DNA of 63,455 nucleotides from NCBI GenBank assembly GCA_902775475.1, contig CACYME010000026.1:1-63455 (forward strand), written 5' to 3'. This stretch comes from an uncultured Prevotellaceae bacterium. Its GTDB lineage: Bacteria > Bacteroidota > Bacteroidia > Bacteroidales > Bacteroidaceae. Positions 24,091 through 41,717 of the stretch are shown here, in pieces. Made by a program: the position numbers and the translations under genes. The notes beneath the pieces are model-generated. The model was not told the origin of the DNA and did not search any database. It saw nothing but the letters and a program-made list of their open reading frames with translations. Every line of letters begins with the position of its first letter. The first letter of the stretch is position 1.

Positions 24091-24129
24091 TGTCCATTTC
24101 CGAACACTCTGAGTGTCCAGAAATGGACA
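24091..24129 (+). promoter_or_regulatory. Two tandem TGTCC-N6-GGACA activator sites
   Basis: TGTCCATTTCCGAACA (24091-24106, one mismatch in the right half) and TGTCCAGAAATGGACA (24114-24129, perfect palindrome) are 23 bp apart centre to centre. They lie 42 bp upstream of a sigma-54 type promoter. The same pair occurs before tolC at 33263-33300. Position and symmetry fit upstream activator sites for an NtrC-family dimer; the regulator encoded at 40251-41618 is the obvious candidate. Confidence 0.8.
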
Positions 24130-24170
24130 GTCGGCTTTGTGCCATTGCTGATTATCAGCGAGTTGCAGTT

Positions 24171-24187
24171 TTGGCACGGTTTTGGCT
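24171..24187 (+). promoter_or_regulatory. Sigma-54 promoter of the permease operon
   Basis: TTGGCACGGTTTTGGCT matches the -24/-12 consensus TTGGCACGnnnnTTGCW except for one base (TGGC for TTGC). It has the required GG-N10-GC spacing (24173-24174 and 24185-24186). Predicted transcription start is near 24198, 24 nt before the ATG at 24222. Confidence 0.82.
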
Positions 24188-24221
24188 GGTAAAATGGCAA
24201 AACCATATTATTCTTTCAGAT

Positions 24222-25565
24222 ATGAGAATGATCCGACAAGCCCTCGCCCTGCTGCGCGAGGAACGACTTTTCTCCGGCATCTACATCGTGGGCACGGCCT
24301 TGGCCATAGCCTTCACGATGGTGATGGCCGTGGTGTATTACATCAAGCTGGCGCCCATCTATCCGGAGCGGAACCGGGCACGGACCGTCTACTTCGAGGG
24401 GCTGTGCATCGAGGCCGACAACGGCGGCAAGGGGCAGACAGGCTTCAGCGCCAAGGCATACGAGGAGTGGTTCAAGAACAGCCCGAACATCGAGTACTGC
24501 TCGCCCACGCTGCTGGCGGCAGGAACGGGCAAGACCTTGGGCAAATGCCACACCTTCGTGGTGCGCGGCAAGGACGACTACGTGGACGTCGTGCGCAATC
24601 AGGTCAATGCCGACTACTTTAAGATTTACGAGTACGACTTCGTGAGCGGTCGGCCTTTCACCCAGAAGGAGGTGGACGACAACGAGAAAGTCTGCGTCAT
24701 CAGCGATGCCCTGGCCGAGCGGCTCTTCGGCAAGGGCGTGGATGCCGTGGGAAAGATGGTGGAGATGGAGAGCGGACCTGAAGTGCGTGTGGTGGGCGTC
24801 TTCCGTGGCGGCAGTCAACTCACGCCCGACAGCTATGCCGACATCATCTATCCCCTCTTGAACGGTGTGGTGATGGGGATTCCCTATCAGGGCCTCTACT
24901 CCATCGTGGCCACCGTTAAGGACGACGACCACCTGCGGGCCTTGAAGCAGGAACTAGACGACGTTGCGGCCCGCACGCAGCAGGCGCATCCCGAGGTACT
25001 GGATGAGTTCAGCTTTGGCGGAAATCCTAAAAAGAAGTTGGTGCTGACCCGCGATATGGAGACCCACCCCATGCACGTTCTGAAGACGGAGAACCGCGAA
25101 GGCTCACTGAGCACGGTGACGGGCTGGCAGCTGGTGAAGCACTATGCAGGCCTGCTCTTCGTGCTGCTCTTCGTACCCGCCCTGAACCTCTGCGGCATCG
25201 TGGCGGGGCGCATGGAGCGACGCTCGGCAGAGATGGCCGTGCGCAAGACCTTCGGCGCACGCCGCTCGACGCTCCTCAGTCAGGTGGTGACGGAGAACCT
25301 GGTGCTGACCACCATCGGAGGCATCATCGGCCTCGTGCTCTCGTGGCTTGCTATCTACGGCCTGCGAAGGGAGATACTGGGCATGTTCTTCGACAACAGC
25401 ACCCTCAGCACGGCACCCATCGTGGAGGGCGAGATGCTCTTTGCCCCCACGCTCTTCGCCGGAGCCTTCGCTGCCGTCCTGCTGCTCAACCTCTTGGCCG
25501 CCGTCGTGCCTGCCTGGTGGAGTCTGAGAAAACCGATTGTAGAATCAATGATGGAAAAACGATGA
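24222..25565 (+). CDS. FtsX/MacB-type ABC permease 1 (pair 1, type I)
   Basis: 447 aa from the ATG giving MRMIRQALALLREERLFSG, chosen because paralogues at 26915 and 30282 begin alike and because earlier in-frame ATGs fall upstream of the predicted transcription start. One transmembrane helix (~20-45), then a periplasmic MacB_PCD-like domain of about 270 residues, and three helices in the FtsX domain (ALNLCGIVAGRMERRSAEMA, then VRKTFGARRSTLLSQVV). The end, RKPIVESMMEKR, is shared by the type I paralogues. The family uses ATP to drive export or mechanical transfer through a TolC-type channel, often of antimicrobial peptides or lipophilic compounds. Its TGA overlaps the next ATG. Confidence 0.85.
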   Translation: MRMIRQALALLREERLFSGIYIVGTALAIAFTMVMAVVYYIKLAPIYPERNRARTVYFEGLCIEADNGGKGQTGFSAKAYEEWFKNSPNIEYCSPTLLAAGTGKTLGKCHTFVVRGKDDYVDVVRNQVNADYFKIYEYDFVSGRPFTQKEVDDNEKVCVISDALAERLFGKGVDAVGKMVEMESGPEVRVVGVFRGGSQLTPDSYADIIYPLLNGVVMGIPYQGLYSIVATVKDDDHLRALKQELDDVAARTQQAHPEVLDEFSFGGNPKKKLVLTRDMETHPMHVLKTENREGSLSTVTGWQLVKHYAGLLFVLLFVPALNLCGIVAGRMERRSAEMAVRKTFGARRSTLLSQVVTENLVLTTIGGIIGLVLSWLAIYGLRREILGMFFDNSTLSTAPIVEGEMLFAPTLFAGAFAAVLLLNLLAAVVPAWWSLRKPIVESMMEKR

Positions 25566-26866
25566 AACAGATACTGAACAATATCCTAAACGCCAATAGT
25601 TGGCTCTTCCTCGAACTCGTCATCATCACCGTCGTGGCATGGGCGGTGTTCGACCCTGCCGTGGTCAACCTCTATTATCGCAGCCTGCCCTTAGGCTACG
25701 ACAGCAGCCAGCTGCTCTATGCCGAAACCGAGGTGAACGGCAGCTGGAATAAAGTCGTCGACGGCGTCCCGCAAGACCCCTACGAGATGACCGAAAAGCG
25801 CCGCGATCAGATACTGCACCAGCTGACGAGCGTGGAGGGCGTGGAATCGGCCTATCTCTACGAGCAAGAGTTCGGTGCCGTGGGCTATAGCCGTCCGGCT
25901 TTCAACGAGTGCGTTGTCGGCGGCGACACCCTGTATCTGGCAGTCATCAACTTCTGCAGCGGCGCCCACTTCTTCGAGACCTACGGGCTGAAGCCCCTGC
26001 CCGGCAGTCCGTCGGCAGCGGAACTCTCGCGCCTGTCGTATCAGGACCAGCAGGTGGTGCTGACGCGCTCGGGAGCCATTGCCCTGTTTGGCACCGCCGA
26101 CGTGGTAGGTCGCCGCCTCACCATCTGCTACGACCCAGCATACGAGGCAACGGTGGCCGGCGTGGTGGAGGACTTCCGTATGTCGGTATCCAACACGATA
26201 CGCTCTATGATCATCAAGCCCCAAAAAACGCAATATACCAACTGCCGATACGTCATCCGTCTGGAGAAGGGGCTGAACGCCCAGCACTTTGTGGAGGAGC
26301 ACGGACAGGAGCTGATACGCAGCGGACAGACGGGCTTCAGCCGCATCAGCCGCCTGACGACCTTCGACGAGTATCTGCAACGGCTCGAACTCGACGACGG
26401 TCGTACGCAGGAGGTGAACCGCAGCCTCGCGCTGGCCCTGTTCTTCCTCGTCAACCTGATGCTGGCGGTCATCGGCACCGTATGGCTGCATGCCAAGCGG
26501 CGCACCGAGGAGTGCGGCGTGCGCCGGGCTTTCGGGGCCACCCGTGGGCGGCTGCTCTTCGACTTCCTCTGGCGCAACGCCCTGCTGGCCACCGCTGCCG
26601 TCGCCGTGGGCCTCGTCATCTACCTGAACTATGCTCACAGTGGCATCCAGGTGTACAACGGTGAAGAATACTGCGAAACGCTCTACACCATCTATGGGAC
26701 TATACTGCCCATGGACAAGGCGTGGCCCGAACACTTCTGGCCCCACTTCCTCACAGTCTCAGCCATCGTCTACCTTATTATATTATGTACCGTCCTCATC
26801 GGCACCGCCATCCCCGCCCTGAAGATTATCGGGACGAGAATCACCACGGCACTGAGGGATGAGTGA
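25562..26866 (+). CDS. FtsX/MacB-type ABC permease 2 (pair 1, type II)
   Basis: 434 aa starting at the ATG that overlaps the preceding stop (ATGA). The N-terminal helix reads WLFLELVIITVVAWAVFDPA, then a periplasmic domain (TRSGAIALFGTADVVGRR is a hallmark segment), then an FtsX domain with HAKRRTEECGVRRAFGATRG and two last helices (VYLIILCTVLIGTAIPALK). Type II paralogues are at 28210 and 31656. The type I and type II proteins probably form a heterodimer around the shared ATPase. The overlap implies translational coupling. Confidence 0.85.
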   Translation: MKQILNNILNANSWLFLELVIITVVAWAVFDPAVVNLYYRSLPLGYDSSQLLYAETEVNGSWNKVVDGVPQDPYEMTEKRRDQILHQLTSVEGVESAYLYEQEFGAVGYSRPAFNECVVGGDTLYLAVINFCSGAHFFETYGLKPLPGSPSAAELSRLSYQDQQVVLTRSGAIALFGTADVVGRRLTICYDPAYEATVAGVVEDFRMSVSNTIRSMIIKPQKTQYTNCRYVIRLEKGLNAQHFVEEHGQELIRSGQTGFSRISRLTTFDEYLQRLELDDGRTQEVNRSLALALFFLVNLMLAVIGTVWLHAKRRTEECGVRRAFGATRGRLLFDFLWRNALLATAAVAVGLVIYLNYAHSGIQVYNGEEYCETLYTIYGTILPMDKAWPEHFWPHFLTVSAIVYLIILCTVLIGTAIPALKIIGTRITTALRDE

Positions 26867-26874
26867 TTCGCCAG

Positions 26875-26914
26875 TACCCAGCTGTCAAATAGTCAAATCG
26901 TGAAATAGTCAAAT
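26875..26914 (+). repeat. GTCAAATA direct-repeat spacer
   Basis: The 48-bp gap between permeases 2 and 3 contains GTCAAATA/GTCAAATC/GTGAAATA/GTCAAATA in tandem, directly before the ATG at 26915. Other spacers in this operon use different short units. Confidence 0.5.
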
Positions 26915-28213
26915 ATGAGAATTATCCGACAGGTCCTCGCCCTGATACGCGAGGAGAAACTCTACTCAGCGATGTACATCGCGGGCACGGCGCTGGCCAT
27001 TGCCTTCGTGATGCTCATTGCCGAGGTGTACTATGTGAAGGTGGCCGACATTGAGCCGGAGGTACATCGCAGCACGACGTACAAACTGACACACTTTGCT
27101 TATCAGAAACAGACAGGCAACACGGTAGGCATTGATTACCAGATGTTCCGCGACCTGTTCCAGACCATGAAGACGCCGGAGTGCGTGATGGCTGTGGACG
27201 AGACATACGGCGTAAAAGGGTATGTGAAACTGCCCGATGGCCTGCACGACCGCGAGGTGCGGCTCAAGAATACCGAACCGGGGTTCTTCCGCTTCTATCA
27301 GTTCCACTTCATCGAGGGAGCACCTTTTACGCAGGATGATTTCGACAACGAGCGCCGTGTGGCAGTCATCACGAAGGAAATCAGCGATTTGCTCTTCGGC
27401 AAGGATGCGAAGGCCTTAGGGCAGACCGTCCGTTTCAACAACTTGGACTTCCGCATCTGCGGCGTGGTGGAAACGCCCAGCGCACTGACCGAGGTGTGTC
27501 TGGCCGACATCTATCTGTATTTATCAGCAGACGGGATGATGAAAGAGTGGTTGTCGCTCAATGCCTGGAGAAGTGTGCCGCTTCATCTTTACTTCAGCGT
27601 GCCTGCCGACCGGCTCGATGCCTTTATGCAAGAACTGAAGTCGGTTGAAGCCCGATACAATGCAACACATAAGGATGATCCTGCCGACGTATTGACTCCT
27701 CTGGTGAGTTACTACTCGGAGGTGTTGAGTGAATTTAGCCATATGTTCTACGCCAGTGTCAACGACAACCGTCTGTGGTTCCTCACGCCCGCCGCCATCC
27801 TGTTGCTCCTGCTCTTTGTGCCTGCCCTGAATCTGAGCGGCATGGTGGCCAGCCGCATGGAGCGACGGCTACCAGAGATGGCCATCCGCAAAGCCTTCGG
27901 CGCCAAGCGGAGGACGCTGCTCGGACAGGTCATCATGGAAAACCTCATACTCACGCTCATTGGTGCTCTCGTTGGACTGTGCCTTGCATGGACGGCACTC
28001 TACGCCTGGCGCGACTGGGTCTTTTATGTATTCTCCGAAAACACGAAGACCTTCGGCCGAGTGCCCATCATCGAGGGCGAGATGCTTTTCGGCCCCGCCA
28101 TCTTCCTCATTGCCCTGCTCTTTTGCAGCCTCCTCAATGTCTTAGCGGCCACACTCCCCGCATGGCTCAGCCTCCGTAAACCGATCGTAGAATCCATGAT
28201 GATTAAGAAATGA
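26915..28213 (+). CDS. FtsX/MacB-type ABC permease 3 (pair 2, type I)
   Basis: 432 aa. N-terminus MRIIRQVLALIREEKLYSAM is nearly the same as permeases 1 and 5. Architecture: TM helix, periplasmic MacB_PCD-like domain, three C-terminal helices including SGMVASRMERRLPEMAIRKA and FGAKRRTLLGQVIMENLI, and the conserved end RKPIVESMMIKK. Its periplasmic domain differs widely from permease 1 while the FtsX part is well kept, which suggests that the duplicates diverged in what they bind. The stop overlaps the next ATG (ATGA). Confidence 0.85.
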   Translation: MRIIRQVLALIREEKLYSAMYIAGTALAIAFVMLIAEVYYVKVADIEPEVHRSTTYKLTHFAYQKQTGNTVGIDYQMFRDLFQTMKTPECVMAVDETYGVKGYVKLPDGLHDREVRLKNTEPGFFRFYQFHFIEGAPFTQDDFDNERRVAVITKEISDLLFGKDAKALGQTVRFNNLDFRICGVVETPSALTEVCLADIYLYLSADGMMKEWLSLNAWRSVPLHLYFSVPADRLDAFMQELKSVEARYNATHKDDPADVLTPLVSYYSEVLSEFSHMFYASVNDNRLWFLTPAAILLLLLFVPALNLSGMVASRMERRLPEMAIRKAFGAKRRTLLGQVIMENLILTLIGALVGLCLAWTALYAWRDWVFYVFSENTKTFGRVPIIEGEMLFGPAIFLIALLFCSLLNVLAATLPAWLSLRKPIVESMMIKK

Positions 28214-29499
28214 AACAGTTGAAAGATATCTTCGGACGCAAGACGTCCATCTGGCTCGCCATCGAACTCGTACTTGTCACCTGCGCCTGCTGGTGGGCCT
28301 TCGACCCTGTCATTATCACATCCTATGTCACCCACCTGCCCATGAACTGCGACATTGACCGCATCGTGAAGATGGAAATAGCCAGTTCGCTGACCGATAA
28401 TGAGCGTGCTATGGCAGGCATAAGTTTCTACGACGGGCCGCGTCGTCTCATGCAGAAGGTGCAGGAGATGGACGAGGTGGAAGTGGGCTGCCTCTCATAC
28501 GACGAAAACGTGATAGGATTCGGTGAGAGTTTCCTCTTCGGCTCCTACTACCACGACGGCGACACAATAATATGCCACTATCTGGACTTCGAGAAAGACT
28601 CCGAGATTTTCGAAGCCTATGGCATCCAGTCGCTGACACCCGAGGTGCCTACCGCCGAACTGACACACGGCTGTGAGAATAACAATACCATCATCATCAC
28701 CCGCTCCGTGGCGATGGCATTCTTCGGAACCATCGACGTGGCAGGGAAAATCATCCATTCGGACGATATGGGGATTAACCTCGAAAACGGACAATGGGAG
28801 CCTACACGCCGCGACTGGCAAATCCGTGCCGTGGTGGAGGACTTCCGGCGTGAGGTTTATGACCGTGATTACGCCAACGTATTTGTCCTCAGCCCTGGGG
28901 CAAGGGCAAGAGCGAATATCATCGTCCGTCTGCGGGATGGCATCGATGCCCGCCGCTTCGTGCAGGAACAGGAGCGCAATGTGCAGCACAACATCGTGAC
29001 AGAGCACAACTATATCCGAAAGATGCAGACTGCCCGTGAAGCCAGCGAATTAGATCTCAATAGCAGTTGGATGGGCAAGCAGGCGCGTCGCAACCTGCTC
29101 ATTGCCGCCTTCTTCGCCATCAACGTGGCCTTCGGCGTCTTCGGCACGCTGCTGATGTACACCCGTCAGCGGCGCGAGGAGGCCGGTGTGCGCCGGGCCT
29201 TCGGGGCCACGAAGTGGAGCGTCTTCTGGAGCTTCATCCGCGAGGCGTGGCTGCTCACCACCATCAGCGTCGTCGCTGGCTGCGCCATCTACTTCCAGTT
29301 TGCCTCTGCCAGCGGCCTCTACGAATACAACGGCGACAACCACCTCACCCATTACTGGTTCGACGACTTCGGCACCCACTTCCTCGTGATATCCCTTTTC
29401 GTCTACCTGATTATCCTATGCACCGTGCTCATCGCCACTGCCATCCCGGCGTGGCGCATCTGCAGGAGCACGATTACGGAAGCAATCAAAGAAGAATAA
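28210..29499 (+). CDS. FtsX/MacB-type ABC permease 4 (pair 2, type II)
   Basis: 429 aa, start overlapping the previous stop. N-terminal helix WLAIELVLVTCACWWAFDPV, a periplasmic domain with ITRSVAMAFFGTIDVAGKII, FtsX segments YTRQRREEAGVRRAFGATKW and the final helices LFVYLIILCTVLIATAIPAW. Type II partner of permease 3. The C-terminal tail STITEAIKEE matches the TTALRDE/VEALHHE ends of the other type II members in position, not in sequence. Confidence 0.85.
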   Translation: MKQLKDIFGRKTSIWLAIELVLVTCACWWAFDPVIITSYVTHLPMNCDIDRIVKMEIASSLTDNERAMAGISFYDGPRRLMQKVQEMDEVEVGCLSYDENVIGFGESFLFGSYYHDGDTIICHYLDFEKDSEIFEAYGIQSLTPEVPTAELTHGCENNNTIIITRSVAMAFFGTIDVAGKIIHSDDMGINLENGQWEPTRRDWQIRAVVEDFRREVYDRDYANVFVLSPGARARANIIVRLRDGIDARRFVQEQERNVQHNIVTEHNYIRKMQTAREASELDLNSSWMGKQARRNLLIAAFFAINVAFGVFGTLLMYTRQRREEAGVRRAFGATKWSVFWSFIREAWLLTTISVVAGCAIYFQFASASGLYEYNGDNHLTHYWFDDFGTHFLVISLFVYLIILCTVLIATAIPAWRICRSTITEAIKEE

Positions 29500-29525
29500 A
29501 CATTAACAATAAAAACAAAAGAACA

Positions 29526-30203
29526 ATGGAAACTGTAATCAAACTGACAGAGATTAACAAAATCTACCGTACGGAAGAAGTAGAAACCCAGGCCTTAGAG
29601 AACGTGAACATCGAGGTGCGCAAGGGCGAGTTCCTCAGCATCATGGGCCCGTCGGGCTGCGGCAAGTCGACGCTGCTGAACATCATGGGACTCCTCGACG
29701 AACCCACCAGCGGGAAGATAGAGCTGTGCGGACAGGTGATAGACCCGAAGATGAGCGACAACCGCCTGGCCGAGCTGCGCAACAAGACGCTGGGCTTCGT
29801 CTTCCAGTCGTTCCACCTCATCCCCACGCTCAACGTCATCGACAACGTGCAGCTGCCGCTCATCTACCGCGGTGTGCGCAGCAGCGAGCGCATCCGCCTG
29901 GCCAAGGAGGTCATCGCCCGTGTGGGGCTGAGCCACCGCATGAAGCACCGCCCCACACAGCTCAGCGGCGGACAGTGCCAGCGCGTGGCCATCGCCCGTG
30001 CCATCATCGGCAACCCCGAAATCCTGCTCGCCGACGAGCCGACGGGCAACCTCGACTCGAAGATGGGTGCCGAAATCATGGAACTGCTGTTCAAGCTGAA
30101 CCGCGAGGACGGCCGCACCATCGTCATGGTGACGCACAACGAGAAGCAGGCGGCAGAGACCGACCGCATCATCAAGTTCCTCGACGGACGGCAGGTCATG
30201 TAA
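29526..30203 (+). CDS. ABC transporter ATPase (MacB/LolD type)
   Basis: 225 aa from the ATG giving [20 protein letters not shown]; the longer in-frame extension runs through permease 4. Walker [10 protein letters not shown] near residue 41, the Q-loop in [20 protein letters not shown], signature [14 protein letters not shown], Walker [14 protein letters not shown] and the switch His in VMVTHN. It is the only ATPase gene among the six permeases, so it probably serves all three pairs. The family powers FtsX-type permeases (MacB, LolCDE, FtsEX). Confidence 0.93.
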
Positions 30204-30209
30204 TCTAAG

Positions 30210-30281
30210 GATATCACGTTATAACGTTATAACGTCATAACGAAATAACGTCATAACGGAATAACGAAATAACGACAAAAG
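30210..30281 (+). repeat. ATAACGTC/ATAACGAA repeat spacer
   Basis: The 78-bp spacer between the ATPase and permease 5 is about ten copies of an 8-9-bp ATAACG unit. Its left part (CGTTATAACGTTATAACG) is self-complementary and can form a hairpin. A very similar block sits before the adaptor gene at 34870-34972. Confidence 0.65.
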
Positions 30282-31649
30282 ATGAATAAACTCATTCTTT
30301 TCCTGCGCCACGCAGTGGCACTCATCCGCGAAGACAAGCTCTTCTCCAGCATCTACATCGCGGGCACGGCGGTGGCCATCGCCTCGGCTATGGTCATTGC
30401 CATCGTGTTCAACATGATGCTGGCCGACATACCGCCGGAGTCGAACCGAAGCCGCACACTCTACGTCTACAGCCGATTCATTCCCACCGAAAAGGCTGAT
30501 GACGTTCCCTATCACCAGGGGCACTCGTCGGTGGCGCTCGACTCGTGCTACCGCCGCATGAAGTGCGTCGAGGCGGCCACGGGCATACTGCCTGCTATGC
30601 AGAACCGCTTCGCCATCGCCGGATTCACCACTACCGACCGCCTGGCCGCTGAGCAAAACACCGTGTCGGCCATTGCCACCGACCCCGACTTCTTCCGCCT
30701 CTACGAACTCACGTTCCTCAGTGGCCGCCCGTTCTCCGAAAAGGAGTTCCGCGACGGCGAGCGGGTGTGCGTGGTGACCGACAAGGTGGCCGCAGCGTCC
30801 GGCGATTCTCCGTCGGAAACAATCAGAATCAACGACAAGCCCTTCCGCGTCGTGGGCGTGGTCAAGGCGGTGAGCGCGTTTCTCGAAGAGGCCACCGCCG
30901 ATGTCTATATGCCCTATACGGTCGAGGGGATGGGCCTTCACCCCAACAATCGTAATCCCCTGCGGAATGGCGACCACTACGTGGACGTGGCCTACCAAGG
31001 AAACCTCAGCACCCGAATCCTGCTCCGCGAAGGCTACACGCTGAAGGACTTCAACACCGAGCTGGAGCCGCTCCGTCAGCAGTACGGCGCCGTCATCAGT
31101 TCGCAGATGGGCGAACAGGTGGAGTGGACGGTGGCTACGCGGACGCACTTCTTCCACAAGATCAACTTCTTCAGCGACAACGACCAGGGGCTGGCCAGTC
31201 AGGCCAAGAACCTGATGCCGCCCGCCCTGCTGATGCTGCTGTTCCTCTTCCTGCCCGCCGTCAACCTGAGCGGACTGGTGTCGAACCGCATGGAGGCCCG
31301 CCTTGCCGAAATGGGCATCCGCAAGGCCTTCGGCGCCAAGCGGCGCACGCTGCTGCACGAGGTCATCAACGAGAATCTGGTGCTGACGCTACTCGGCGGC
31401 ATCGTCGGCTGGCTGCTGTCGGCCCTCTTCATAGCGCTCATCCGCGACAACCAGATCTTCCTGCAGATGTTCGTCTCGCGCGACCAGAACGTGGTTGACA
31501 CGGGCTTGCAGTTCCAGATGTTCTTCACGCCCACGCTCTTCCTCATCGTGTTCCTCTGCTGCGTGCTGCTCAACCTCATGGCCGCACTCATTCCTGCGTG
31601 GCATTCGCTCCGTAAACCCATCGTAGAATCCCTCAATCAAAAGAGATAA
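30282..31649 (+). CDS. FtsX/MacB-type ABC permease 5 (pair 3, type I)
   Basis: 455 aa, the longest of the type I set. N-terminus MNKLILFLRHAVALIREDKL, helix IYIAGTAVAIASAMVIAIVF, a periplasmic domain of ~290 residues, FtsX segments SGLVSNRMEARLAEMGIRKA and FGAKRRTLLHEVINENLVLT, and the end RKPIVESLNQKR. Type II partner follows 6 bp downstream. Confidence 0.85.
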   Translation: MNKLILFLRHAVALIREDKLFSSIYIAGTAVAIASAMVIAIVFNMMLADIPPESNRSRTLYVYSRFIPTEKADDVPYHQGHSSVALDSCYRRMKCVEAATGILPAMQNRFAIAGFTTTDRLAAEQNTVSAIATDPDFFRLYELTFLSGRPFSEKEFRDGERVCVVTDKVAAASGDSPSETIRINDKPFRVVGVVKAVSAFLEEATADVYMPYTVEGMGLHPNNRNPLRNGDHYVDVAYQGNLSTRILLREGYTLKDFNTELEPLRQQYGAVISSQMGEQVEWTVATRTHFFHKINFFSDNDQGLASQAKNLMPPALLMLLFLFLPAVNLSGLVSNRMEARLAEMGIRKAFGAKRRTLLHEVINENLVLTLLGGIVGWLLSALFIALIRDNQIFLQMFVSRDQNVVDTGLQFQMFFTPTLFLIVFLCCVLLNLMAALIPAWHSLRKPIVESLNQKR

Positions 31650-31655
31650 CGCCCC

Positions 31656-33008
31656 ATGATACTCAAGAACTTTTGGGCACACCGCCGCCAGAACGGCTTC
31701 GTGTTCGTTGAGATAGCCCTCATCGCCATTCTCAGTTTCTACCTGATAGACAACATCACCGTATGGGCCTACGGCAGATACTTCTGCCAGGCCGCCGGCG
31801 AGTTTGAGAAGGAGCACCTGCTCGTGGGGCAGACGGCAAGGCTTACCCCCATCACCACTGAAGCCGACACCGCCTGGCAAGAGTCTTCCGAAGAAGCATC
31901 CATCAGGATTATGTCTGCGGAGGAATACCCCAAAGTCATGGCCAGCCTCTTCGCCTTCCGCGACGAGGTGCGTGCCCTGCCCGAGGTGCAGTCGGTGTGT
32001 CTCACCCATGAATTCATCGGCGACGGCACAGGCAGCTGGCGCTACCACGCCATGGCCCCCGAGGCCGACACCACCAGGACCTGTTCCACCTATATGGATC
32101 GTTTCTGCCTGAACGAGTGCTACTTCGAGACAATGGGCCTGACCGCCGTGGCCGGCGCTTCTCCGTCGGCAGAAAGCCTCTCCAGGGAGACAACCCCCGG
32201 CAGTGTCGTCATCAGCCGCAGCCTCGCGCTCCAGCTCTTCGGCACCGCCGATGTGGTGGGCCGGCGGGTGGTGGATATAGACTATAAGCCCGGCCCCGAC
32301 GGCATGGACGTACAGCAGACGACACACAGAACCGTGGCGGGCGTGGTGGAGGACGTGAAACCCGTTGAGTATGAGCGTTTCCACTACATCGCCTTCTATC
32401 CCTATAGTGTGCTCGCAAGCAACACGCCCCGGATGCTCATCCGCCTGAAGCCGGAGGCCGATGCCGGGGAGTTCATAGCGAAGCATGCGCAAACGGTCAC
32501 TACCGGGACGTATGCCTTCGCCTCGCTGATGGTCTACAAAGACTATTTGGAGAAGAACATCCGCACCTCCGACCAGTACATCATCCTCACGCTCCTCGGC
32601 ACCCTCGGCTTGCTCTTCGCGCTCAACGTCGTGCTGGGCACGCTCGGCACCTTCTGGCTGCAGATTCGTAAGCGCACCGAGGACCTCGGCATCATGCGCA
32701 GCTTCGGGGCCAAGCGCCGCCACCTGTTCTGGATGATCTGGGGCAAGGGGGCGCTGCTGACGCTCCTGGCCTGCATCGTGGGACAGTTCATCTGGCTGCA
32801 GTTTGCCGTCAGCAACGGTCTGGCCGACGGTGGCGTCCGTGCCACCTCCCTGCGCGAAAACGACTGGGTGAACACCTTCTGGCTCCACTTCCTCATCGTC
32901 TGCGCCGTGCAGTACCTCCTGCTGCTCGCCATCGTCACCATCGGCATCTCCGTGCCCACGCTCCTCGCCATGTACAAGCGGCCCGTCGAGGCCCTGCACC
33001 ATGAATAA
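31656..33008 (+). CDS. FtsX/MacB-type ABC permease 6 (pair 3, type II)
   Basis: 450 aa. N-terminal helix FVFVEIALIAILSFYLIDNI, a periplasmic domain with VISRSLALQLFGTADVVGRR (nearly the same as in permease 2), FtsX segments QIRKRTEDLGIMRSFGAKRR and two closing helices. Last gene before a GC-rich hairpin and the second sigma-54 promoter, so it probably ends the first transcription unit. Confidence 0.85.
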   Translation: MILKNFWAHRRQNGFVFVEIALIAILSFYLIDNITVWAYGRYFCQAAGEFEKEHLLVGQTARLTPITTEADTAWQESSEEASIRIMSAEEYPKVMASLFAFRDEVRALPEVQSVCLTHEFIGDGTGSWRYHAMAPEADTTRTCSTYMDRFCLNECYFETMGLTAVAGASPSAESLSRETTPGSVVISRSLALQLFGTADVVGRRVVDIDYKPGPDGMDVQQTTHRTVAGVVEDVKPVEYERFHYIAFYPYSVLASNTPRMLIRLKPEADAGEFIAKHAQTVTTGTYAFASLMVYKDYLEKNIRTSDQYIILTLLGTLGLLFALNVVLGTLGTFWLQIRKRTEDLGIMRSFGAKRRHLFWMIWGKGALLTLLACIVGQFIWLQFAVSNGLADGGVRATSLRENDWVNTFWLHFLIVCAVQYLLLLAIVTIGISVPTLLAMYKRPVEALHHE

Positions 33009-33262
33009 GGGCCAAGCCCGGCCCCTATGTGGCGTCTCTACAGAAAGGTAGGCAGCGCCCGCTGCCAAACATTTCCCCGCCCGCTGCCATTATTGGCAGC
33101 GGGCGCTGCCAATATCGTCCCCGCCCGCTGCCAACAACAAAAGTGGCGCTTTTGTCCCGCTAAAGCGTGGCCTAATTCCTGCTTCCCGCCACTTTTTCCC
33201 CGCCACCCGTCTTCTTTCAACAAGGGCAAGCCTTTCTCTTCACCATAGCAGCCCCACCGCAC
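33009..33262 (+). repeat. GC-rich CGCCCGCTGCCA repeat and hairpin
   Basis: No gene. Starting at 33051, CGCCCGCTGCCA occurs three times on the plus strand and once inverted. CGCCCGCTGCCA (33078-33089) and TGGCAGCGGGCG (33094-33105) form a 12-bp perfect stem with a 4-nt loop, probably a transcription block between permease 6 and tolC, though without a U-tract. GTGGCGTCTCTAC at 33029-33041 is half of the palindrome found whole at 54615-54643. Confidence 0.6.
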
Positions 33263-33300
33263 TGTCCAGAAACGGACAGTTGTGTGTCCGATAATGGACA
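33263..33300 (+). promoter_or_regulatory. Two tandem TGTCC-N6-GGACA activator sites before tolC
   Basis: TGTCCAGAAACGGACA (33263-33278) and TGTCCGATAATGGACA (33285-33300), both perfect palindromes in the outer 5 bp, 22 bp apart centre to centre. They lie 41 bp upstream of a sigma-54 type promoter. Arrangement and distance copy the pair at 24091-24129 (23 bp apart, 41 bp of spacer). Confidence 0.82.
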
Positions 33301-33341
33301 CTCTGCGACGAACCCAAACTGATAATCAACGACTTACGTGT

Positions 33342-33358
33342 TTGGCATCGTTTTTGTT
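33342..33358 (+). promoter_or_regulatory. Sigma-54 promoter of tolC
   Basis: TTGGCATCGTTTTTGTT fits the -24/-12 pattern, with GG at 33344-33345, ten bases, then GT instead of GC at 33356-33357. The predicted start of transcription, near 33369, leaves only about 5 nt before the tolC ATG at 33374, so the mRNA would be almost leaderless; the -12 call is therefore a little less sure than the one at 24171. Confidence 0.68.
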
Positions 33359-33373
33359 ATGTGATATGTTGTT

Positions 33374-34870
33374 ATGAAAGCATTACTGACTATTCTCGCC
33401 ACATTTGGCGTTTCAACGTTCATGGCCCAGGCACAGCCCGACACGCTACGCCTCTCGCTCGACGAGTGCATCGCGATGGCACGACGGCAGAGCATCGACG
33501 CTGCCATGGCCTTAGGCGAACTGCGGTCGGCCTACTGGCAGTGGCGCAGCTACAAGGCCGACCTGCTGCCCGAGGTGTCGCTGCAGGGCACGCTGCCCTC
33601 GTACAACAAGCGCTACAGCAGCTATCAGCAGGCCGACGGCAGCATGACGTTCGTCCACAACGACTACCTGGGCCTCAACGGGGCATTGAACATCACGCAA
33701 AAGCTATGGCCCACGGGCGGCACGCTCTCCGTGGAGTCGTCGCTCGACTATCTCCACCAGTCGGGCAGTTCCTCCCTTCGGGGAGGTCAGGAGGGGGCTT
33801 CTGATCAGTTCATGTCGCTGCCCGTGGCCATCACGCTCTCGCAGCCCCTCTTCGGCGTGAACCACCTGAAGTGGAACCGCCGCATAGAGCCGCTGCGCTA
33901 CCGCGAGGCGCAGGCCCGTTTCCTCACCGAGACCGAGCAGGTGGCCATGCAGGCCATCAGCCTCTTCTTCAACTTGCTGCTGGCCGGCGAGCAGGTGAAC
34001 ATCGCCCGCCAGAACCTGCAGACCGCCGAAAAGCTCTACGAGGTGGCGCAGGCCAAGCGCCGCATGGGCAGCATCAGCGAGAACGACGTGCTGCAGCTGC
34101 GCCTCGGCATGCTCAACGCCCGCAGCGCGCTGACCAACAGCGAGAGCACCCGCCAGGCCCGCCAGTTCGCCCTCCGCTCGTTCCTCGACGTCGATTGCCC
34201 CATCGCGGTCGACGTGCCCGAGGGTTCTCCCGAGGGCCTGCGCCTCGCCTACGAGGACGTCCTCGCCCACGCCCTCGAGAACAACGCCCACGCCACCACC
34301 ATGCGCCGCCGCCAGATGGAGGCCGACTACGCCGTGGCCTCGGCCCGTGCCAACCGCCAGAGCGTCAACCTCTATGCTCAGGTGGGCTACACGGGCAACG
34401 CCGACAAGCTGGGCAATGCCTACCGCGACCTGCTGGGCAACGACGTGGTGCGCGTGGGCATCAGCATCCCGCTGCTCGACTGGGGCAAGCGCAAGGGACA
34501 GCGACGCATGGCCGAAAGCAACCGCGACATCGTGCGCGGACAGCTCCGCCAGCAGGCGCAGGAGTTCCGGCAGAACCTCTTCGTGCTCACCGAGCAGTTC
34601 AACAACCAGGCCGAGCAGCTGCACATCGCTGCCGAGGCCGACACCATCGCCCGCCGCCGCTATCACACGAACGTGGAGACCTTCAAGATTGGCAGCATCT
34701 CGACCCTCGAGCTCAGCGACGCACAGACGGCCAAGGACGAGGCCCGACTGGGCCGCATACAGCAGCTCTATCAATACTGGCTCTACTACTACCAGCTGCG
34801 CAGCATCGCCCTCTGGGACTTCGAGCGCAACTGCGATCTCACGGCCGACGTGGAGCAGCTCATCAAATAA
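33374..34870 (+). CDS. TolC-family outer membrane channel protein
   Basis: 498 aa with a signal peptide (MKALLTILATFGVSTFMAQA). Typical TolC/OEP layout: two repeats of long helices with short beta-barrel strands (LSLDECIAMARRQSIDAAMA at the start; AISLFFNLLLAGEQVNIARQ mid-protein; FKIGSISTLELSDAQTAKDE near the end). It provides the outer membrane exit for the exporter. Residues ~130-143 (SGSSSLRGGQEGAS), in a loop between the first barrel strands, are encoded by a GC-rich palindromic repeat (33771-33800). The adaptor gene follows after a repeat-filled 102-bp spacer. Confidence 0.9.
   Translation: MKALLTILATFGVSTFMAQAQPDTLRLSLDECIAMARRQSIDAAMALGELRSAYWQWRSYKADLLPEVSLQGTLPSYNKRYSSYQQADGSMTFVHNDYLGLNGALNITQKLWPTGGTLSVESSLDYLHQSGSSSLRGGQEGASDQFMSLPVAITLSQPLFGVNHLKWNRRIEPLRYREAQARFLTETEQVAMQAISLFFNLLLAGEQVNIARQNLQTAEKLYEVAQAKRRMGSISENDVLQLRLGMLNARSALTNSESTRQARQFALRSFLDVDCPIAVDVPEGSPEGLRLAYEDVLAHALENNAHATTMRRRQMEADYAVASARANRQSVNLYAQVGYTGNADKLGNAYRDLLGNDVVRVGISIPLLDWGKRKGQRRMAESNRDIVRGQLRQQAQEFRQNLFVLTEQFNNQAEQLHIAAEADTIARRRYHTNVETFKIGSISTLELSDAQTAKDEARLGRIQQLYQYWLYYYQLRSIALWDFERNCDLTADVEQLIK
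33771..33800 (+). repeat. In-frame GC palindrome in tolC
   Basis: CCTCCC-TTC-GGGGAGG followed by TCAGGAGGGGG, translated as SLRGGQEGA. Member of the palindromic family found inside several genes here. Confidence 0.7.
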
Positions 34871-34972: not shown

Positions 34973-36238
34973 ATGAAGAACGACAACCAAACCATGGACA
35001 GGCAGATTCCTGTCAGCGAGCAGCACCGCCGCAAGATGAAGCGCGGCGCCATCGGCGTGGCCATCGCCGTCGCCGTGCTGGGCTTCGGCGCCTGGCTCGG
35101 CACCCAGATGATTCCGACCCTCGACCGCAAGACGCTGGTCATCTCCGACGTTGACCGAGGCACCATCGACGTGAGCGTCTCGGCCACGGGGCGCATCGTT
35201 CCCGCCTTCGAGGAAGTCATCGTGTCGCCCATCAGCTCGAAAATCCTCGAGGTCTTCGCCCACAGCGGCGACAGCGTCGACATCGGCACGCCGCTGTGCC
35301 GACTGGATCTCCAGTCGGCCGAGACGGACTACGCCAAGGCCCTCGACGAGCGCGAGATTCGCCGCCAGCAGACCGCTCAGCTCCGCGCCAACGTGGAGAC
35401 GCAGCTCTCCGACCGCCGCATGCAGATAGAGGTGGAGGAGATGAAACTCTCGCAGCTGGAGGCCCAGCTGCGCAACGAGCGCTACCTCGACAGCCTCGGC
35501 TCCGGCACCCGCGACCGCGTCCGTCAGGCCGAGACCACCCTGCGCACGGCTCAGCTGCAGCTCGCCCAGCTGCGCCAGCAGTACCAGAACGAGCAGCGCG
35601 TGCGACAGGCCGACCTGCGCATGCAGCAGCTGCAGAACGGCATCTTTGAGAAAAGCCTCGACGAGAAGCGCCGCACGCTCGACGACGCCAACATCCGCTC
35701 ACCGCGCCGTGCCACGCTCACCTACATCAACAGCGAGGTGGGCAGCACCATCGGCGCCGGACAGAAGATTGCCGTCGTCAGCGACCTGAGCCACTTCAAG
35801 GCCGAGTGCGAAATCTCCGACACCCACAGCGACCGTGTCCGCGTCGGCGGGGCCGTCATCCTGCGCATCGGCAAGGAGCGCCTCACGGGCATCATCAACA
35901 CCGTGACGCCGTTGAGCCAGAGCGGTGCCATTACTTTTACGGTTGTCCCCGACGACATGAGCCATCCCCGGCTGCGCTCCGGCCTCCGCACCGAGGTCTT
36001 CGTCATCACCAGCATCAAGGACGACGTGCTCCGCATCCGCAACGGCTCGTTCTACAGCGGCCCCGGCGACTACACCCTCTTCGTCCTCGATGGCGACCTC
36101 CTCCATCCCCACCAAGTCCGCCTCGGCGAGTGCAACTACGACTACATCGAAGTCATCAGCGGGCTGGAGCAGGGCGAGCAGGTCGTCGTCAGCGATATGT
36201 CGAAATACAAGGGGAAGGAGAAACTGAAGGTAGATTAA
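34973..36238 (+). CDS. Periplasmic adaptor (HlyD/membrane fusion) subunit
   Basis: 421 aa. One N-terminal transmembrane anchor at ~25-45 (GAIGVAIAVAVLGFGAWLGT), then a lipoyl-type half (VSATGRIVPAFEEVIVSPIS, HSGDSVDIGTPLCRLD), a long coiled coil at ~105-225 (many Arg/Glu/Gln, e.g. RRQQTAQLRANVETQLSDRR), and the second lipoyl half plus beta-barrel and membrane-proximal domains. It would bridge the FtsX permease/ATPase complex and TolC. Lies 102 bp after tolC; probably the same transcript from the sigma-54 promoter at 33342. Confidence 0.9.
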   Translation: MKNDNQTMDRQIPVSEQHRRKMKRGAIGVAIAVAVLGFGAWLGTQMIPTLDRKTLVISDVDRGTIDVSVSATGRIVPAFEEVIVSPISSKILEVFAHSGDSVDIGTPLCRLDLQSAETDYAKALDEREIRRQQTAQLRANVETQLSDRRMQIEVEEMKLSQLEAQLRNERYLDSLGSGTRDRVRQAETTLRTAQLQLAQLRQQYQNEQRVRQADLRMQQLQNGIFEKSLDEKRRTLDDANIRSPRRATLTYINSEVGSTIGAGQKIAVVSDLSHFKAECEISDTHSDRVRVGGAVILRIGKERLTGIINTVTPLSQSGAITFTVVPDDMSHPRLRSGLRTEVFVITSIKDDVLRIRNGSFYSGPGDYTLFVLDGDLLHPHQVRLGECNYDYIEVISGLEQGEQVVVSDMSKYKGKEKLKVD

Positions 36239-36310: not shown

Positions 36311-38701
36311 ATGAACAAGCATATCATCTTTTCTATCCTACTTGCCCTCATCGCAGCCAACGGATGGGCACAGAAAATCTGGACCAATCCGGGCTATCGT
36401 AACGAACCGCACGGATTCCAGTTTGATGTCAACGAAGTGGAGTTCCGGCCTGACGAGACTGTACTGCACATCACCGTCAGTAACCATCCTAATGCCAAGT
36501 TCTCCTTCGGGAAATGCACCGTGCTGAAGACGGAGGACGGACTGTCGTACCCCATCATCAGCGCAAAGAAGACACGAGACGGTGAGACAGACCTTGCGCT
36601 CGACACGCATATCCCCATTCCCGAATCTGGTAAGACCGACGTGGCGCTCCACTTCCAACCATTGCCTCAGGATGTCAGGCAGTTTGACCTTGTCGAAGGT
36701 TACGCCCGCAACTTCTTTAAGATATGGGACATCACTGACCCTGCCTACAAGCAGCAGGCATCGCTCTTCAACAGCAGTTGGCGCAACGTAGAAACTGGCG
36801 AATGGGTTATCAGCCTCTTCAATGATTATGCTGTATATAATAATAAGGTGTGGCAGTACGAGAAGAAGTCAGACAAGAAGATTGTGCTATCCGTTGGCAA
36901 TGACAAGATAGTCATCTCTATCGGCAAAGAGAAGGAAGGCAAGCGCACGTTCAATATGGACGGCAAGAAGCTGACGCTCTCTGCTATTACCACCAGCACC
37001 ATTACCGACTATCCAACAGCCGACGAGACAACCTTTAATACCGAATTGAAAGAGGGTAATGCCGTTGTAAGCGGTTGGCTGAGATACCCAGAAGAGATGC
37101 TCCAAAATAGACTGACAGTCGAGGCTTCGCTTGGTAACGTCGCTACCGATGACTATACTCATCATTCCACGCAGGCCGACTCTTTGGGCCGCTTCGAGTT
37201 GAACGTTCCGCTCGTTGGCACACAGGGAGTCTCCCTGCTTATACGAAATGGTCAGAATGAGCCTATTGACGGCGTCAGCGTTGTACTGACGCCTGGCGAG
37301 AAGTATTTCATGCAGAAAGACTACAAGTCATCGCAGACGCTCTTTATGGGTGATGACGCCCGACTGCAGAACGAGTTGCAGGCAGAGAGTCCACACATGG
37401 ATTATGTAGGTTTCATCGATAACCCCGTGAGCGATGACTCCGTAAGGGTCATGGCACAGAAGTGGATACAAAGCTATGAGCGGTGCGTGGCTCAGGATAA
37501 GGACTTCCTAACTCAGCACCCCAACATGAGCAAACGCTTTCGTGACTATATCCGTGAGAGCCAACGCATAAACGTCTGTTCCCAGCTATTGATGATGCAC
37601 TATGACACCTATACCCGCTTGTTGCCTGCCGACGTGATGGAGTGGGTAGAAGAGCACTCGGCCATTGACACTTCACTGTCTGTCAATCTCATTAGCGGAA
37701 TGGCATCGATGCTGAGATACAAGCGCGAATGTTATACTTGGGCCGACCCACGAATCAATCTGCTGTGGGGAAGGGCCTCCGTCCTGCCCTGGCTTCAGTC
37801 GAAAGGCATGCTCCGTCTCAGCGAGGAAGACCATGTCGCCATCGGTCAGGTTGAGCAGATGAACAGGGAAATCTTCGCTCTTTATACCCGGATAAAAGAC
37901 CGCAGCGTGCTCAATGACTCCATCAGTGGTGTTCAGGAGAAATACGCGGCGTATGTCGATGCGGCCAACAAGATACAAGAGCGTGCTGACTACCAGGAGG
38001 CACTGAACACGCTGTGCATTGGCGGCGAGCAAGGTATTGCCAATGACATCATCGACTTGCTTGTCACCGACCCGCTCGTCAACAGCGTGTATCATGCACA
38101 GATACTCAACGAATATATTGACCACGAGCGGTGCGCGCTTCCAGAGGAACTGGAGCCTTACATCGCACTCATCAAGGAACCGTACTTCAGGAATCTCATC
38201 ACCAAGAAGAACGACTACTTCAAGCAACTGATGAAGGAAAAGGAAGCGGCAGTGAATTCAGTCCTCCATCCGTCGTCGGATGTGGAAGGACTCACCGACG
38301 GCAAGGCTATCATCGACAAGATTGTCGAACCTTACCGGGGCAAGATGGTGTATCTTGACATCTGGGGCACGTGGTGCGCACCATGCAAGCGAAAGTTGAG
38401 CGAGTCGCACAAACTCAAGGCCGAACTTGGGGACTACGACATCGTGTATCTCTACTTAGCCAACCGTTCGCCTGAAAAGTCGTGGAAGAACGTCATCGCC
38501 GAGTATGACCTCACAGAGCCTAATTGCGTTCACTACAACCTGCCAGCCGAGCAGCAGCACGCCGTTGAGCAGTATGTGGGTCTGACTGGCTACCCCACCT
38601 ACCGGCTCTTCGACAAGCAAGGACGTATGCACCACCTCAATTGGCTCGACGACGAAAACCTGTCTGAGTTCAAGAAGAAACTTGATGCGCTGGGAGAATA
38701 G
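36311..38701 (+). CDS. Large periplasmic thioredoxin-like (TlpA-type) protein
   Basis: 796 aa with a signal peptide (MNKHIIFSILLALIAANGWA). Residues ~20-330 are beta-rich, ~340-640 mostly helical and unrecognised. The last ~140 residues form a TlpA-like thioredoxin domain with an intact redox motif (IWGTWCAPCKRKLSESHKLK, Cys at about 690 and 693) and the cis-Pro loop TGYPTYRLF. Probably a thiol-disulfide oxidoreductase or reductant carrier in the periplasm. It follows the adaptor gene by 72 bp on the same strand, so it may share the exporter's transcription. No obvious promoter of its own. Confidence 0.78.
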   Translation: MNKHIIFSILLALIAANGWAQKIWTNPGYRNEPHGFQFDVNEVEFRPDETVLHITVSNHPNAKFSFGKCTVLKTEDGLSYPIISAKKTRDGETDLALDTHIPIPESGKTDVALHFQPLPQDVRQFDLVEGYARNFFKIWDITDPAYKQQASLFNSSWRNVETGEWVISLFNDYAVYNNKVWQYEKKSDKKIVLSVGNDKIVISIGKEKEGKRTFNMDGKKLTLSAITTSTITDYPTADETTFNTELKEGNAVVSGWLRYPEEMLQNRLTVEASLGNVATDDYTHHSTQADSLGRFELNVPLVGTQGVSLLIRNGQNEPIDGVSVVLTPGEKYFMQKDYKSSQTLFMGDDARLQNELQAESPHMDYVGFIDNPVSDDSVRVMAQKWIQSYERCVAQDKDFLTQHPNMSKRFRDYIRESQRINVCSQLLMMHYDTYTRLLPADVMEWVEEHSAIDTSLSVNLISGMASMLRYKRECYTWADPRINLLWGRASVLPWLQSKGMLRLSEEDHVAIGQVEQMNREIFALYTRIKDRSVLNDSISGVQEKYAAYVDAANKIQERADYQEALNTLCIGGEQGIANDIIDLLVTDPLVNSVYHAQILNEYIDHERCALPEELEPYIALIKEPYFRNLITKKNDYFKQLMKEKEAAVNSVLHPSSDVEGLTDGKAIIDKIVEPYRGKMVYLDIWGTWCAPCKRKLSESHKLKAELGDYDIVYLYLANRSPEKSWKNVIAEYDLTEPNCVHYNLPAEQQHAVEQYVGLTGYPTYRLFDKQGRMHHLNWLDDENLSEFKKKLDALGE

Positions 38702-41618: not shown

Positions 41619-41624
41619 GAAGTG

Positions 41625-41700
41625 ATGAGTGAGAAGTGAGAAGTGATGAGTGATGAGTGAGAAGTGATGAGTGAGAAGTGATGAGTGAAGAATTTGTTTT
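41625..41700 (+). repeat. GTGATGAGTGAGAA repeat spacer
   Basis: About eight copies of a 7-mer pair (AAGTGAT/GAGTGAG) fill the 99-bp gap between regulator and kinase genes. Confidence 0.6.
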
Positions 41701-41717
41701 CGCCTGAATGTGAATAG

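Follow-up and report, generated by a model that had tools for sequence, protein, structure and literature searches.

The exporter locus and its two control regions

The stretch of DNA analyzed here, referred to as the window, spans 63,455 nucleotides (contig CACYME010000026.1, assembly GCA_902775475.1) of an uncultured Prevotellaceae bacterium. It contains two forward-strand units encoding an FtsX-type exporter together with an NtrC-type response regulator and a histidine kinase. Unit A is formed by three FtsX permease pairs and one ATPase; unit B assembles a TolC-like channel, an adaptor, a thioredoxin-domain protein, an AAA_14 protein, the regulator and the kinase. Each unit is preceded by a control region built from the same parts: two tandem palindromes, an element resembling a binding site for the integration host factor (IHF), and a -24/-12 promoter of the sigma-54 type. 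Judging from their sequence and from the recurrence of their layout in related gut and rumen bacteria, the two regions are very probably a real, dedicated on-switch of a familiar kind. They comprise:

24091..24106, unstranded: putative activator site A-distal, TGTCCATTTCCGAACA (pattern match, one mismatch)
24114..24129, unstranded: putative activator site A-proximal, TGTCCAGAAATGGACA (pattern match, exact)
24153..24165, plus strand: IHF-like site A, TATCAGCGAGTTG, which fits WATCARNNNNTTR, between the pair and the -24 element (consensus match)
24171..24187, plus strand: -24/-12 promoter A, TTGGCACGGTTTTGGCT, predicted +1 at about 24198 (sequence match)
33263..33278, unstranded: putative activator site B-distal, TGTCCAGAAACGGACA (pattern match, exact)
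33285..33300, unstranded: putative activator site B-proximal, TGTCCGATAATGGACA (pattern match, exact)
33324..33336, plus strand: IHF-like site B, AATCAACGACTTA (consensus match)
33342..33358, plus strand: -24/-12 promoter B, TTGGCATCGTTTTTGTT, predicted +1 at about 33369 (sequence match)

A preliminary description of this DNA had reported tandem TGTCC-N6-GGACA palindromes at both units, 22-23 bp apart and some 41 bp upstream of the promoter, with no third pair in the window. Three of the four palindromes are indeed exact, and the one at 24091 reads TGTCC-N6-GAACA. The rest of the claim stands: the start-to-start separation is 23 bp in pair A and 22 bp in pair B, exactly 41 bases intervene at both loci up to the first T of TTGGCA, and the other matches with at most one mismatch are only single sites (1244 and 13803). 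Single sites with two mismatches allowed occur in the window at chance level (25 found, 29.9 expected), so the signal lies in the pairing. In the whole assembly (3,729,835 bases, 69 contigs, 98.98% complete), the exact palindrome occurs four times, three of which fall in the exporter region. The fourth (C8:149178) was rejected as a real site: its score of 0.3, compared with ~22-29 for strong sites, looks like chance. A search for two TGTYC-N6-GRACA sites with a gap of 0-30 retrieves two matches from the assembly, both being the window pairs, and none with the reversed pattern.

Sigma-54 promoters are characterized by GG at -24 and GC (or GT) at -12, with canonical spacing. Both window promoters conform to this consensus, spacing included; at -12, promoter B has GT and promoter A has GGC in place of TGC. 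The sigma factor itself is encoded in the genome, where rpoN is identified by a PF04552 match of 168 bits at C18:3322. The predicted leader of tolC is only ~5 nt long (33369-33374), near leaderless, as compared to 4 nt in the relative L124 and 24 nt for unit A.

The IHF-like sites (24153-24165 and 33324-33336) constitute a third element, absent from the preliminary description. Alignment of the upstream regions reveals a conserved CTGATWATCAR-NNAN-TTA block, the TTA of which ends 5 bases before TTGGCA. The core of this block fits WATCARNNNNTTR, the Escherichia coli IHF consensus as quoted in the retrieved part of PMC7962754. A palindrome-free pattern, combining the IHF core with TGGCAY-N7-G, returns two matches in the source genome, the two exporter promoters, and none when reversed. 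The palindrome pairs and this independent pattern therefore agree in singling out the same two promoters. Extended to 22 chosen genomes (18 with a pair or regulator and four without), the pattern gives 51 matches versus 3 in the reversed control. Among the 29 that could be scored, 19 have a pair just upstream (score of at least 19) and 10 do not (below -20), with none between. An off-by-one sigma-54 spacing, used as a control, gives 10 matches versus 7 reversed, none in the source genome and none of the 10 with a pair. To note, locus L115 (positions 1501-3028; G000, contig C20) carries two HU/IHF-family genes in head-to-tail order, a candidate bending-protein pair; the second has a long fused tail, in which a membrane segment is apparent (413 amino acids).

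Conservation in related genomes

Related contigs were searched with the regulator, and the best 80 loci of at least 588 relatives were analyzed: they come from Bacteroidaceae, including Prevotella, Bacteroides and Phocaeicola, and many are from uncultured members. Of these 80 loci, 20 contain strict pairs. A position weight matrix (PWM) was built from strict pairs and used with gaps of at most 30 allowed and a pair cut-off score of 24; trained on strict pairs from the loci that it later scanned, it yields scores that are partly circular, which the exact-pattern and palindrome-free searches are not. Pair A scores 54.3. The scanned set of 86 loci encompasses the 80 best loci, the window, L118-L121 and L124, four of the last five having been added for their pair. 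It contains 54 pairs above 24, not counting L122 (G009) and L123 (G049), two omitted loci that likewise carry a pair but no promoter. Ten Markov shuffles of the 86 loci (1.42 Mb each, matching settings) give no pair above 24, the best score being 16.4.

The pair is present in 34 of the 80 best loci; among the other 46, an exporter gene is visible in 28 and none in 18. Seventeen of these 28 begin inside an exporter gene, so that the operon start is out of view. Nine of the 11 others display one good palindrome, upstream of tolC or of the adaptor gene, 43-44 bases before a sigma-54-like site (at least 18.7), with a decayed distal site. Pairs front exporter units near the regulator in Prevotella, Bacteroides, Phocaeicola and relatives, and each unit of a split exporter often has its own (L051, L053, L056-L060, L062, L083, L085). 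At 53 of 54 promoters, a same-strand exporter gene is inferred to start 39-337 bp downstream of the pair end: tolC in 31 cases, permease A1 in nine, the adaptor in five, and the ATPase and permease A2 in four each. The exceptional promoter, L124:12807, lies 738 bp from a permease remnant. Fifty-two of the 54 pair-plus-promoter sequences are distinct. The pair of L124:12807 (G032) is a third, weaker one; an IHF-like site (one mismatch) and a sigma-54 site accompany it near permease remnants, and a second exporter copy may be decaying here.

A sigma-54 promoter scoring at least 19.9, sought over 10-100 bp, accompanies 53 of the 54 pairs, the exception being L072:8208; the promoters also number 54, since the L065 pair serves two divergent ones. 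The distance from pair end to promoter is either 31-32 bp (15 promoters) or 42-45 bp (39 promoters), with nothing between, so that roughly one helical turn separates the two classes. The GG of -24 and the G of -12 are each found in 39 of 39 promoters of the long class, a set selected by score. The IHF-like site is exact in 26 of these 39; when the long spacers were dinucleotide-shuffled 500 times, exact matches averaged 0.15 and never exceeded 2. With one mismatch allowed, it is found in 37 of 39, a count without shuffle control, and neither form occurs in the 15 short promoters. For the 37 long promoters other than those of L065, gap and spacer sum to 48 or 49 in 30 cases, and the standard deviation of the distal-site distance is 0.97, as compared to a mean of 1.74 and a minimum of 1.26 in 2000 permutations. 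Gap and spacer thus compensate each other, and the distal site keeps its distance. At L065:3653-3708 (Phocaeicola coprophilus), a 56-bp stretch with two palindromes 24 bp apart is shared by the divergent adaptor/permease and tolC promoters, each with its own IHF-like site.

Association with the regulator

The expectation, expressed in the preliminary description, that the sites should accompany orthologues of the regulator is borne out. In 298 genomes of the family (completeness of at least 90%, regulator called at E <=1e-120), a strict pair is present in 34, with none in the reversed control, and the regulator in 112. Both occur in 30 genomes, the pair only in 4, the regulator only in 82 and neither in 182 (Fisher p ~1e-10, not corrected for shared ancestry). 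Pairs stand before exporter units near the regulator, 32 of 50 lying within 20 kb of it. Together with the conservation of the pairs and the presence of rpoN, this co-occurrence supports the earlier proposal that the regulator would switch on the exporter with sigma-54.

More distant regulators are also found near related sites: genome G024 (60% identical regulator) has a relaxed pair before the adaptor gene, G055 (53% identical) has CGTCC-N6-GGACG upstream of the adaptor gene, and G049, from another family, has a pair ~127 bp upstream of a 42-45%-identical regulator gene, without a sigma-54 site. The sixth half-site base varies with the recognition helix of the regulator: regulators with SRGALYRKI go with A in 57 of 84 half-sites, and those with SRAALYRRL in 11 of 72. 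At the end of contig C116 of G073 (L179:6213-6299), the pair continues into an IHF-like/promoter sequence with which the regulator-bearing contig C39 also begins, so that C116 and C39 are probably neighbours.

Promoters beyond the exporter

Twenty further regions from other genomes were scanned at the same thresholds, and 12 of them contain a pair with a sigma-54 promoter. Among the others, L182 combines a good promoter at 45 with a distal palindrome that is weak, while the -24/-12-like site seen at 43-45 in L172, L184, L185 and L186 is a weaker one (17.7-18.7). L179 is cut off by the end of its contig, and L168 and L187 lack a -24/-12 site. In addition to exporter genes, large, apparently secreted thioredoxin-domain proteins lie behind promoters with pair, IHF-like and sigma-54 sites in three genomes (L169, L171, L178), and an outer-membrane barrel in L173 (PF14905); L181 is similar by eye, with no Pfam match. 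The same promoter plan before such genes predicts a regulon wider than the exporter, and fits the presence of a thioredoxin gene in unit B of the window.

The regulator and the kinase

The NtrC-type activator and kinase that had been placed at 40251-42986 are recovered as such by domain matches: Response_reg, Sigma54_activat and HTH_8 at 40251-41618, and PAS and HATPase_c at 41718-42986. The regulator is composed of a REC domain, an AAA+ sigma-54 domain with the contact loop GAFTDA, and a Fis-type helix-turn-helix. Among the matches listed, it stays below the NCBIfam equivalog cut-offs of AtoC (378.5/714), NtrC (TIGR01818, 371.9/558.6) and ZraR (305.2/760). In 85 regulators, the loop is GAFTDA in 53 and GSFTDA in 30, and no match was found in two. 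GAFTDA is among the variants expected to keep activity according to the retrieved part of PMC4641369, and an engineered change of the same glycine to aspartate in NorR leads to escape from GAF-domain repression, as stated in the part of PMC2941729 that was retrieved. The assembly has two strong PF00158 activator domains only (228 and 222 bits), six other matches reaching 23-34 bits; the second activator (L189, C8:125148-126488) has the recognition helix ITRFALYRKL, as compared to ISRGALYRKI in the adjacent regulator. Both strong activators carry GAFTDA, and a filter requiring an exact GAFTGA would miss both.

The kinase possesses two membrane segments, a short loop, a PAS domain, an H-box (AHEVNN) and HATPase_c. 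Simple hydropathy, applied to 83 kinase orthologues, gives two segments with almost no external loop, although some orthologues have truncated N-termini or longer loops. An FYRK-like motif was found in 73; in 46 of these it directly follows the second segment, at about residue 48-50. Intramembrane-sensing histidine kinases are defined by two membrane segments, a short connecting loop and the lack of an external domain, and the kinase corresponds to this definition. Since so little of it is external, its signal may come from the membrane or from a partner transporter.

The exporter genes

The genes of the two units are:

24222..25565, plus strand: FtsX/MacB_PCD permease A1, first gene of unit A (domain match)
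25562..26866, plus strand: FtsX permease B1
26915..28213, plus strand: FtsX/MacB_PCD permease A2
28210..29499, plus strand: FtsX permease B2
29526..30203, plus strand: ABC ATPase, the sole one in unit A
30282..31649, plus strand: FtsX/MacB_PCD permease A3
31656..33008, plus strand: FtsX permease B3
33374..34870, plus strand: TolC-like outer-membrane channel (OEP x2), first gene of unit B
34973..36238, plus strand: HlyD-type periplasmic adaptor
36311..38701, plus strand: thioredoxin-domain protein, apparent signal peptide (by eye)
38889..40223, plus strand: AAA_14/DUF4143 ATPase, present in only some related clusters
40251..41618, plus strand: NtrC-type response regulator, proposed binder of the pairs
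41718..42986, plus strand: histidine kinase

The exporter has the parts of a MacAB-TolC system: MacB periplasmic core and FtsX permease, adaptor, and TolC-type channel. It is not a MacB proper, in which the ATPase is fused to the permease: the ATPase gene is separate (29526-30203) and the MacB equivalog match is 47.9 bits for a cut-off of 966. The AAA_14/DUF4143 protein is 95-98% identical in L029, L037 and L052, where the regulators are only 67-85% identical. Horizontal transfer of its gene was considered and rejected: DNA identity is only 86-89% and the aligned stretch extends past the gene, so that strong conservation explains the protein identity.

Proposed mechanism and alternatives

We hold it likely, and with good confidence, that the exporter operons are activated through sigma-54 by the NtrC-type regulator encoded next to them, which would bind the pairs and would probably be assisted by an IHF-type bend. 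The regulator (40251-41618), phosphorylated by the kinase in response to a presumed signal, would bind in dimeric form to both TGTCC(R)-N4-(Y)GGACA palindromes of each unit, at approximately -107 to -69. An HU/IHF-family bending protein would probably occupy the IHF-like site (about -45 to -33), folding the activator onto the sigma-54 polymerase. ATP hydrolysis by the regulator would then open both promoters together, so that the FtsX permeases and ATPase would be made in concert with the TolC channel and adaptor, for a presumed substrate. Transcription of unit B may extend through the regulator and kinase genes, which makes positive feedback plausible.

Several observations weigh against this mechanism. 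The regulator occurs without a strict pair in 82 of its 112 genomes, with relaxed pairs or single proximal sites where inspected. Strict pairs occur without a detected regulator in G110, G168, G197 and G203: they stand before tolC at a contig end (G110), before a 402-residue protein that looks secreted (G197) and before a more divergent exporter (G203); the G168 pair was rejected as a real site, since its score of -5.1 looks like chance. Three genomes from a set of 60 relatives (G007, G018 and G033) contain a pair but neither regulator nor adaptor, which suggests assembly loss. No sigma-54 promoter is found at the pairs of L122 (G009), L123 (G049), L072:8208 and L168 (the third pair of G161). 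The L122:6332 pair has a 9-bp gap; the 130 bp flanking it on each side contain no sigma-54 site, and its genome yielded no close regulator. Of the 11 pairless loci inspected, L049 and L101 lack a good palindrome with a sigma-54-like arrangement, and the other unit starts of L074, L077, L094 and L103 show no palindrome. The figures for promoter conservation are conditional on the sigma-54 score cut-off, the correlation between helix and half-site is confounded by shared ancestry, and none of the four HU/IHF-family proteins of the genome reaches an IHF family cut-off.

Some of these points would also fit other explanations. The pairs might be bound by another regulator, either the second strong activator (C8:125148-126488) or an unrelated repressor or activator, the adjacent regulator having other targets; binding by the latter is itself a prediction, and a few pairs lack a detected regulator or a sigma-54 promoter. 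Yet pairs and adjacent regulator co-occur in close proximity over many genomes, the drift of the motif tracks the recognition helix of the adjacent regulator, and in G049 the pair even precedes the gene of its distant relative, which makes this explanation improbable. Chance palindromes in an AT-rich intergenic stretch would account for the chance-level frequency of single two-mismatch sites in the window, but this origin is practically negligible, being refuted by the genome-wide pair search, the palindrome-free pattern, the 298-genome comparison (34 versus 0 reversed) and the shuffles of the related loci.

The promoter and the candidate bending element raise questions of their own. Sigma-70-family promoters could be the main drivers of the exporter units, the sigma-54-like sequences being incidental: sigma-70-like matches (9 of 12) overlap both promoters (24182 and 33342), and Bacteroidota use other vegetative promoters. 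However, a scan of the region for sigma-70 promoters and terminators is near chance level (12 sigma-70-like matches versus 8.3 expected, standard deviation 3.2), and the -24/-12 site stands at one of two fixed distances from 53 of 54 pairs, so we regard this as very improbable. A more serious, although still unlikely, alternative is that TGATWATCAR-N4-TTA is the site of another factor or an upstream polymerase-contact element, rather than a site of IHF/HU bending. On the 5' side, the conserved stretch reaches beyond the IHF consensus and takes in a TGATWATCA palindrome, the first T of which is found 22 bases ahead of the TTGGCA start in 35 of 39 promoters, and the lack of a protein reaching the IHF cut-off would fit as well. 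On the other side, the exact consensus is enriched over shuffled spacers and restricted to the long class, and the element is located between activator sites and promoter, a common place for IHF binding according to the retrieved part of PMC7962754.

Relation to known systems and significance

The regulator-driven switch proposed here shares with NtrC/NifA-type promoters (as presented in the same part of PMC7962754 and as generally known) the two upstream dimer sites, the IHF match between them and the promoter, the -24/-12 element and a REC-AAA+-Fis helix-turn-helix activator. It differs by rather close activator sites, by a second promoter class, a helical turn shorter and without an IHF-like site, and by an activator family with GAFTDA/GSFTDA instead of GAFTGA. 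PMC12316311 predicted sigma-54 promoters on FtsX-type ABC permeases (COG0577) in Bacteroidia, calling this first evidence: permease class, sigma factor and bacterial class are those of the window exporter, whereas the retrieved passages name no activator, activator sites, bending element or operon-level switch for these permeases. A search of openly licensed PMC papers, a set outside which most subscription journals fall, found no description of the regulator or motif.

MacAB-TolC-type exporters share with the window the MacB_PCD/FtsX permeases, the HlyD-type adaptor and the TolC-like channel; the window exporter is distinguished by a separate ATPase gene, three permease pairs per ATPase gene and NtrC-type two-component control. 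Bce modules of Gram-positive bacteria combine OmpR-type regulators with 10-segment permeases. BceRS-BceAB resembles the window in its two-segment kinase with almost no external domain, located beside FtsX-class permeases, but sigma-54 and MacB-like permeases accompanied by TolC set the window apart. Taken as a whole, the plan of tandem activator sites, IHF-type site and -24/-12 promoter is textbook, and the features that appear unusual are the two-class helical spacing and the sensor kinase predicted to lack an external domain. At the speculative end, the locus may represent a Gram-negative, sigma-54 form of transporter-coupled sensing: the kinase would read the state of the multi-permease FtsX exporter or of the membrane, one regulator would drive an envelope programme (exporter, secreted thioredoxins, outer-membrane barrels), and two promoter builds, a long one with an IHF-type bend and one shorter by a helical turn without it, would be interchangeable, the bend being losable if the activator keeps its DNA face. 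We give this only a modest chance of being right.

For Bacteroidota, where the retrieved literature says little on activator sites, the locus offers a concrete activator, a predicted binding site and a promoter plan for sigma-54 control. In gut and rumen bacteria, it would place an entire exporter under a single two-component system. It also provides a searchable signature for the regulon, and may serve as a natural experiment showing how helical phasing and DNA bending affect the contact between activator and polymerase.

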